Source: a virus
Virus record (IMG/VR): IMGVR_UViG_3300020469_002898
Coordinates: 1-22,737 of that record
Length of the DNA: 22,737 bases
Direction: 5' to 3' (one strand)
Each line of letters opens with the position of its first letter. Within the stretch, counting starts at the first letter, position 1. Both the position numbers and the translations under genes were made by a program. This document shows, piece by piece, positions 14,985-16,593 of the stretch. The notes beneath the pieces are model-generated. The model worked only from the letters and a program-made list of their open reading frames with translations. It had not been told where the DNA came from and ran no database searches.

Positions 14985-15004
14985 GGTCAGTTACTTAACT
15001 GGCC
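14985..15004. repeat. 20-bp near-perfect inverted repeat at the end of the Phd-like gene
   Basis: Nine-base arms GGTCAGTTA and TAACTGGCC around a central CT, with one mismatch that becomes a G-U pair in one RNA strand. It covers the last codons and TAA stop of the Phd-like gene. It could be an operator, or a 3' hairpin protecting the short mRNA; no T-run follows to make it a standard terminator. Confidence 0.6.
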
Positions 15005-15165
15005 TCGTTGTGATCTGTATACATTTCATACACTGGATCATTAACTGGAACCATCACAGCTGCGTTTCCATTCTCATTCACTATTCCTAATGCCTCTCCC
15101 TTCTCCACTCTAGTTATTAGTTCGTCCCATCGTTCTTGAAATTCTTCTACAGAAAAAACTTCCAT
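14995..15165 (-). CDS. Phd/YefM-like antitoxin-fold protein (orphan)
   Basis: A 56-residue protein found by reading the gap. Its N-terminal 41 residues follow the Phd/YefM antitoxin pattern: a start strand and helix (MEVFSVEEFQERWDELITRV), then EKGEALGIVNENGNAAVMVP, the strand-turn-strand of Phd with the 'xGExxxIxxxGxxxAxxVP' spacing. The C-terminal toxin-binding tail is only about 15 residues (YEMYTDHNEAS). Neither neighbour looks like a Doc, YoeB or other known toxin. An extended -10 promoter lies 25 nt upstream. It could neutralise a host toxin during infection or act as a small repressor. The family call comes from pattern, not from a search. Confidence 0.65.
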   Translation of the reverse strand: MEVFSVEEFQERWDELITRVEKGEALGIVNENGNAAVMVPVNDPVYEMYTDHNEAS

Positions 15166-15189
15166 CAATCTGTTGTAGTTGGTTTATTT

Positions 15190-15923: not shown

Positions 15924-15952
15924 ATTATAGAGGGTGTCCTCTTCTCTGTCAA
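15924..15952 (-). promoter_or_regulatory. consensus sigma70 promoter for the tRNA array
   Basis: TTGACA (15952-15947) and TATAAT (15929-15924) are both perfect and separated by exactly 17 bp on the minus strand. The expected start is about 15917, upstream of a leader and four tRNAs. The -35 overlaps the TGA stop of the lysozyme-like gene. This is the strongest host-type promoter in the window and predicts early, abundant tRNA synthesis. Confidence 0.9.
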
Positions 15953-16542
15953 GCCATAACCAGTTTTGATGTGTATTGATGGCTGTATGCTTTTCTTGAT
16001 CCCTCAACTCCCCATCCTAACCAGTAGTAGGAAGGAACCATGTATTGATTAATACTTTGACCATTACCCTCAAACTCAGGAAGGACTTTTTGGAATTGGG
16101 TTTCATTAATCATATAACGTGTCTGACACTCAAGAGTGCTAGGATTGCATCCATACTTATTAGCAAAATAACTCAACCCCAAATAACGTTGTGTAGAGGT
16201 CCACTGAATGAGTCCGTACCCACCCCTATGACAATCATCGTAAGAAACTCTAGCACCTCCCTCACAAATGTTGGAATTGAACTTGCTTTCTTGTTTAATG
16301 TTACCCATGATCGTTGCCAAGGCATTTCGATCTGTGATTCTTGTTTGGGTTTGTAATTGTTTAAGGACATATTTTTCGTTGTCTGTGCATGTTGGGCAAG
16401 TCCATGTGATTAGTGGAACAACTTCAATAGGTACAGCTGTGTTCTCATCTTCAGTAACATCAACTGTTAAGTTGGCTCCTGTTGAGGCTTGTTGACAACC
16501 CACCAACAATACTGCCAGTAGAGGTGTTAATAGTTTCTTCAT
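15949..16542 (-). CDS. lipoprotein with phage tail-lysozyme (peptidoglycan hydrolase) domain
   Basis: A 197-residue exported protein. Residues 1-15 form a lipoprotein signal (MKKLL..., hydrophobic core) with lipobox LVGC, Cys16 being the predicted lipidation site. A Thr/Glu-rich linker (about 20-45) leads to a domain starting near residue 55 with ALATIMGNIKQESKF (catalytic-type Glu85) and GGYGLIQWT (107-115), the pattern of the Phage_lysozyme2 tail lysozyme family. Six further cysteines (49, 52, 93, 104, 132, 139) suit the oxidising periplasm. It would cut peptidoglycan from a membrane anchor. It has its own promoter, and its stop codon carries the -35 of the tRNA promoter. A lysis or superinfection role is inferred. 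Confidence 0.82.
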   Translation of the reverse strand: MKKLLTPLLAVLLVGCQQASTGANLTVDVTEDENTAVPIEVVPLITWTCPTCTDNEKYVLKQLQTQTRITDRNALATIMGNIKQESKFNSNICEGGARVSYDDCHRGGYGLIQWTSTQRYLGLSYFANKYGCNPSTLECQTRYMINETQFQKVLPEFEGNGQSINQYMVPSYYWLGWGVEGSRKAYSHQYTSKLVMA

Positions 16543-16564: not shown

Positions 16565-16593
16565 ATTATAATAGTATTATGTATCTCAGTCAA
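16565..16593 (-). promoter_or_regulatory. sigma70-type promoter for the lipoprotein lysozyme gene
   Basis: TTGACT (16593-16588) and TATAAT (16570-16565) at 17 bp spacing on the minus strand; expected start near 16558, giving a leader of about 16 nt before the ATG at 16542 without a clear Shine-Dalgarno sequence. The -35 includes the TGA stop of the upstream nuclease gene. Confidence 0.8.

Follow-up and report, generated by a model that had tools for sequence, protein, structure and literature searches.

The DNA analysed here (the window) is a complete virus record of 22,737 bases, whose content is that of a T4-like marine cyanophage, with gp61, nrdA, nrdB, four tRNAs and a block of sugar and cell-surface genes (gene names were assigned partly from reading translations). 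On its minus strand, positions 15949-16542 hold an ORF that opens with an ATG and whose start is fixed by an in-frame TGA one codon 5' of it. The gene and its features are as follows:

15949 to 16542, minus strand: putative exported lysozyme gene of the phrog_512 / T4-GC 942 family, 197 aa
16495 to 16542, minus strand: predicted lipoprotein signal peptide MKKLLTPLLAVLLVGC, residues 1-16, with lipobox LVGC and Cys16 as the predicted lipidation site
16399 to 16494, minus strand: linker, residues 17-48, of a length and sequence that vary among relatives
15952 to 16398, minus strand: lysozyme domain, residues 49-197, with Glu85 and the invariant C49, C52, C93 and C104
16565 to 16593, minus strand: host-type (sigma-70-like) promoter of the gene, TTGACT-17-TATAAT, kept in relatives

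Between nrdB and the lysozyme gene lies a SegE-type GIY-YIG endonuclease gene (PF19835, 16590-17018, minus strand), for whose family the PHROG name 'NAD synthetase' looks wrong. The window also encodes a short Phd/YefM-like antitoxin (phrog_375, 14995-15168, minus strand), and no toxin was noticed adjoining it. Within the window, no holin or spanin was identified next to the lysozyme gene.

The N-terminus of the protein has the organization of a bacterial lipoprotein signal (KKLLTPLLAVLLVGC, Cys16), that is, a positive n-region (KK), a hydrophobic h-region with a mean Kyte-Doolittle value of 2.5 and, after it, the lipobox L13-V14-G15-C16, which fits the consensus [LVI][ASTVI][GAS]C as cited in PMC6139136. 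When the strict lipobox rule was applied to the 92 window ORFs of at least 50 aa, the lysozyme ORF alone passed. Since the lipobox sits after the h-region, the protein does not classify as a SAR endolysin. From this N-terminus we infer that Sec export is very likely and that lipidation of this copy at the predicted site, Cys16, is probable.

The remainder of the protein is a lysozyme domain. Phage_lysozyme2 (PF18013) matches residues 71-160 (E=1.4e-12, 48.4 bits against a curated cut-off of 28.2), and the phrog_512 profile, for which function is listed as unknown, matches residues 17-196 (E=2.9e-90). An earlier note on this DNA had read an LVGC lipobox and a Phage_lysozyme2-like domain on a single ORF, together with six further cysteines; the lipobox rule and the PF18013 match confirm the former, and the cysteines are indeed there (C49, C52, C93, C104, C132 and C139). 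To place the domain structurally, an alignment of 110 diverse family members was used as a profile against the PDB, where it found the tail lysozyme gp13 of phi29 (3csr, E=3.9e-4). In this profile alignment E85 of the window protein falls on Glu45, the catalytic Glu of gp13. All 110 members keep E85 as well as the cysteines C49, C52, C93 and C104. A motif check that did not depend on the cysteines recovered C93 at all 324 loci and CxxC at 322 of them. The two other cysteines are less constant: about 65% of weighted relatives have C132 and about 14% have C139. An AlphaFold (AF2) model of the protein has a mean pLDDT of 90, with block means above 90 for residues 41-197 and low confidence up to about residue 30, in the linker. 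Its top structural match is again 3csr (Z 13.9, 2.9 Å over 138 residues); other chains of that protein aside, the remaining matches score Z 9.3 or lower. As modelled, the domain has the gp13-type fold with catalytic Glu that defines PF18013, and muralytic activity of the muramidase type is highly probable from sequence. The four invariant cysteines could form a zinc site rather than disulphides, because signal-less forms of the protein retain them as well.

In phi29, gp13 sits at the tail tip, has an endopeptidase domain and lacks an export signal. Its N-terminal lysozyme domain (PDB 3csq/3csr) has a fold and an aligned catalytic Glu in common with the window protein, in which, by contrast, the domain stands alone, follows an export signal and has four additional invariant cysteines. 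A second likeness is to the bacterial lipoprotein lytic transglycosylases, in which a lysozyme-like domain on a lipid anchor faces the peptidoglycan. One of them, MltF, matches the window model at Z 9.0; however, MltF and similar proteins are host housekeeping enzymes with other domains, and they are likened to the window protein by fold and anchor. The statement that this protein is unlike a normal endolysin or a tail-tip lysozyme therefore holds, in that the domain stands alone and carries an export signal.

The family, phrog_512 or T4-GC 942, is that of Syn9 gp214, and Syn33_212 and SSM2_227 carry the label 'T4-LIKE GC: 942'. A tblastn search recovered 408 phage records, namely 346 Synechococcus, 58 'Cyanophage' and 4 Prochlorococcus records, against 365, 61 and 24, respectively, for the cyanophage core protein CobS taken as a yardstick; these records are redundant and their names are not hosts (Syn1 and Syn33 are filed as Prochlorococcus phages, and their hosts are Synechococcus). 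Most Synechococcus T4-like phages thus carry the family, which by this measure is nearly universal among them, whereas few phages with a Prochlorococcus name do. The closest isolates reach about 69-70% identity to the window protein, the S-RIP1 podovirus lineage also has a member, and an unannotated copy lies in S-SZBM1 (OL473597, 6923-7372, minus strand). The family is absent from S-PM2, P-SSM2, S-SM1, P-HM1 and S-CREM1. Its members have 150-240 aa and consist of the lysozyme domain alone; tail-type PF18013 proteins are found in a 1,173-aa frame of S-PM2 and a 1,021-aa frame of S-TIM66. Database records call the members of the family hypothetical or 'tail lysozyme', and in one case 'virion structural'. 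The usual neighbours of the gene are nrdB, tRNAs, hli or psbA, it often lies directly upstream of psbA, and it is mostly distant from baseplate genes. A host origin was considered and dropped, the plasmid search having given nothing; the one close relative among 84,980 species genomes sits on a contig assembled from a metagenome and assigned to 'Rhodobacteraceae', probably phage DNA that was misbinned.

Comparison of the N-termini showed that the lipoprotein signal is not shared by the whole family. Of the 233 distinct relatives, a lipobox is present in 72; another 91 have a hydrophobic N-terminal segment without Cys, in many cases Ala/Gly-rich and SAR-like, and the N-termini of about 69 show little or no signal (start codons were picked by rule, and individual cases may be wrong). 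Syn9 gp214 itself belongs to the second group, with a hydrophobic segment that lacks the lipobox Cys. The third includes the S-SZBM1 group and all 40 proteins of the S-RIP1 podovirus type, which have 150 aa and start within a few residues of CxxC. When Cys-containing N-termini were shuffled, just 2.4% passed the lipobox rule. On a tree built from only the lysozyme core, a short alignment in which many forks are unresolved, the lipobox changed state at least 22 times, 6 of these changes being forced by well-supported branches. Because of these repeated changes, the delivery type appears to turn over quickly while the lysozyme core and its four cysteines stay constant. The oddness that the earlier note saw in a lipobox lysozyme thus stands for the anatomy and falls for uniqueness, since other, interchangeable N-termini occur in the family beside the lipobox. 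Endolysins are known in cytoplasmic, SAR and signal-peptide types (PMC9239132, PMC7692668); by analogy, an exchangeable delivery signal matches this pattern and would be out of keeping with a structural tail protein. Both the domain and the family were already known; what appears to be new is the lipoprotein, SAR-like and soluble delivery series and the endolysin assignment. We found no prior description of either in the open-licence literature, and earlier ones are possible.

The gene has its own promoter-like site, TTGACT-17-TATAAT, which matches the sigma-70 consensus at 11/12 positions, 23-51 bases upstream of the ATG (16593..16565, minus strand), and is conserved in close relatives, bearing out the earlier claim of a host-type promoter. 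In the two main groups of relatives, a score of 10/12 or better was reached by 79 of 152 upstream regions, against a mean best score of 7.4-7.8 in shuffled sequences, and a T4-type late motif occurs in 12 of the 152. The upstream region hence seems to favour host RNA polymerase. A perfect 12/12 sigma-70-like site overlaps the 3' end of the lysozyme gene (15952-15924, minus strand) and reads into a cluster of tRNA-Arg, tRNA-Gly and tRNA-Asn; its position at the 3' end and its direction into the tRNAs led us to reject it as the promoter of the lysozyme gene.

To see which other hydrolases accompany the family, six families (Phage_lysozyme, SLT, Amidase_2, M15_4, SleB and M23) were searched in nine phages; the S-SCSM1 virion proteins ORF213 and ORF214 (PMC9602691) belong to families outside these six. 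None of the six gave an above-cut-off match in Syn9, S-RIM8, S-E7, S-SCSM1, S-SZBM1 or S-RIP1. The M23 matches in S-PM2 and S-TIM66 lie within long frames (762 and 1,021 aa), and a T4-type lysin was found in only S-PM2 among the nine. In several well-known phages, the window family thus supplies the one stand-alone hydrolase that scored above threshold, though this exclusivity does not extend to every phage. Indeed, S-PM2, in which a T4-type lysin is encoded downstream of nrdB and the family is missing, had suggested strict replacement of one lysozyme by the other; this idea was dropped, as S-SRM01, ACG-2014f, DSL-LC02 and DSL-LC03 carry both, mostly together with a C39-type peptidase. The S-PM2 'putative lysin' p157 (PF00959) is likewise a stand-alone lysozyme from a T4-like cyanophage, encoded a short way downstream of nrdB, but it belongs to the unrelated T4-lysozyme family, has no export signal and adjoins a C39-type peptidase.

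The S-PM2 lysin frame (NC_006820, 115534-116717; L345:7535-8718) has no ATG start. The C39-like peptidase gene that precedes it ends in GCA AAA AAG TAA, which contains an in-phase A AAA AAG heptamer; a -1 frameshift there would yield a peptidase-lysozyme fusion. The same order is found in one frame in ACG-2014f_207, and the reverse order in S-CREM1_9.

We also looked for partners in lysis around the family gene. No clear holin was found adjoining it. The neighbouring gp215 was rejected as a holin, as it has no predicted transmembrane segment and belongs to no family of known function, and PF20048/DUF6450, with two hydrophobic segments and present in 46 loci, is a holin lead only. In 54 loci the gene is accompanied by a phrog_591 protein, secreted and about 223 aa long, that has no Pfam match, contains an HExxH motif and may be a metallopeptidase; its gene lies about 0.4-0.7 kb downstream (in L248, L323, L023 and others). 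Directly downstream of the podovirus-type gene (for example in L271 and L084) is an outer-membrane beta-barrel gene (PF24653, phrog_417), which in most S-RIP1-type loci starts 4 bases inside the lysozyme gene; a role of the barrel in breaching the outer membrane is possible. In a spanin survey, S-PM2, Syn9, S-SM1, S-SM2, Syn19 and others are listed as phages without an identifiable spanin (PMC6139136), and two T4-like cyanophage genome papers, descriptive or review (PMC3037559, PMC2984593), do not mention lysozyme.

On balance, we favour the view that the window protein serves Synechococcus T4-like cyanophages as their endolysin or as one of their principal endolysins, a role in lysis that we infer together with the enzymatic activity. 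Sec would export a peptidoglycan hydrolase of the muramidase type by means of its own signal, signal peptidase II would cleave this signal, with lipidation at Cys16, and the gp13-like domain would be positioned in the periplasm on a tether of roughly 30 residues. Relatives would reach the same place by three routes: a lipoprotein signal, a hydrophobic segment resembling a SAR or signal peptide, or, for those with no signal, delivery by a holin. More tentatively, the enzyme could be a lipoprotein endolysin that is Sec-exported, expressed from a host-type promoter, held by its lipid and activated at lysis without a classical cassette or spanin, and whose anchor relatives swap or drop. Campylobacter phages are known to encode endolysins that depend on Sec for export and lie outside a lysis cassette (PMC7692668), and phage Mu provides an example of SAR endolysins (PMC9239132). 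Mu gp22 (PMC9239132) and the signal-peptide (SP) endolysins of Campylobacter phages (PMC7692668) are muralytic enzymes with a Sec signal of their own, as here; in contrast, the window protein belongs to another catalytic family and has a lipidation signal instead of a SAR segment, although the Ala/Gly-rich N-terminal segments of some of its relatives do resemble those of SAR endolysins. The protein is not always the sole lysozyme, given the T4-type lysozyme also encoded by S-SRM01, ACG-2014f, DSL-LC02 and DSL-LC03, and lysis does not require the family in all cyanophages, because S-SM1, P-HM1 and P-SSM2 lack it. Furthermore, a host-like promoter and a rare late motif weaken the reading as a lysis enzyme, unless the anchor keeps the enzyme inactive.

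The same promoter, at 10/12 or better in 79 of 152 regions, is the main support for a different account, which we consider unlikely: an early muramidase, expressed from a host promoter and anchored in the envelope, that would trim peptidoglycan during infection and not at lysis, be it for growth, for assembly or for hindering a second phage. The location of the gene in the psbA/hli/tRNA region and not in the structural region would fit such early remodelling, as would the other exported proteins near it in relatives (the phrog_591 HExxH protein, 54 loci, and the PF24653 barrel) and the coexistence of a T4-type lysozyme in some phages. A lipid anchor also fits restrained activity, with which it goes in the membrane-bound lytic transglycosylases of the host. 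However, the signal-less forms of the podoviruses and the S-SZBM1 group would remain cytoplasmic without a holin, and the six other hydrolase families had no above-threshold match in Syn9, S-RIM8, S-E7, S-SCSM1 or S-RIP1.

A virion-associated (tail) lysozyme used at entry is quite improbable. The closest solved fold is that of a tail lysozyme, phi29 gp13, and the copies of S-TIM66 and S-SCSM1 are labelled 'virion structural protein' and 'tail lysozyme', respectively. Yet the former label was probably inherited from an identically worded 997-aa protein of S-TIM5, and, in its accessible part, the S-SCSM1 virion paper (PMC9602691) discusses two other lytic proteins and not this one. Moreover, the export signals predicted on about 70% of distinct relatives are ill-suited to virion assembly in the cytoplasm, the gene mostly lies away from baseplate genes, adjoining nrdB, tRNAs, hli or psbA, and S-PM2 and S-TIM66 have a separate large PF18013 protein. 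The virion proteomes of S-SM1 and S-PM2 are uninformative here because both phages lack the gene.

Finally, a superinfection-exclusion lipoprotein that blocks a receptor or DNA-entry step and uses its lysozyme domain for binding only, as might be suggested by the lipoprotein signal, the host-type promoter and the sole match to an exclusion family, Cor (phrog_1119, E=0.005), is very improbable, since this match is confined to residues 1-23, the signal peptide, and does not make the protein Cor-type, many relatives have no lipobox, and the lysozyme Glu is invariant in 110 sequences, so that the enzyme is under selection. Of the three functions proposed in the earlier note, a lysis component thus has the most support and superinfection exclusion is disfavoured by the retained active-site Glu and a Cor match to the signal peptide only; early remodelling is the main rival, and a tail role is less likely.

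Little is known about how T4-like cyanophages lyse their hosts, and the family described here, with its proposed function as an endolysin, provides a concrete candidate. Its delivery signal, which alternates between a lipid anchor, a membrane segment and none, would offer a natural series for studying the evolution of lysis timing.
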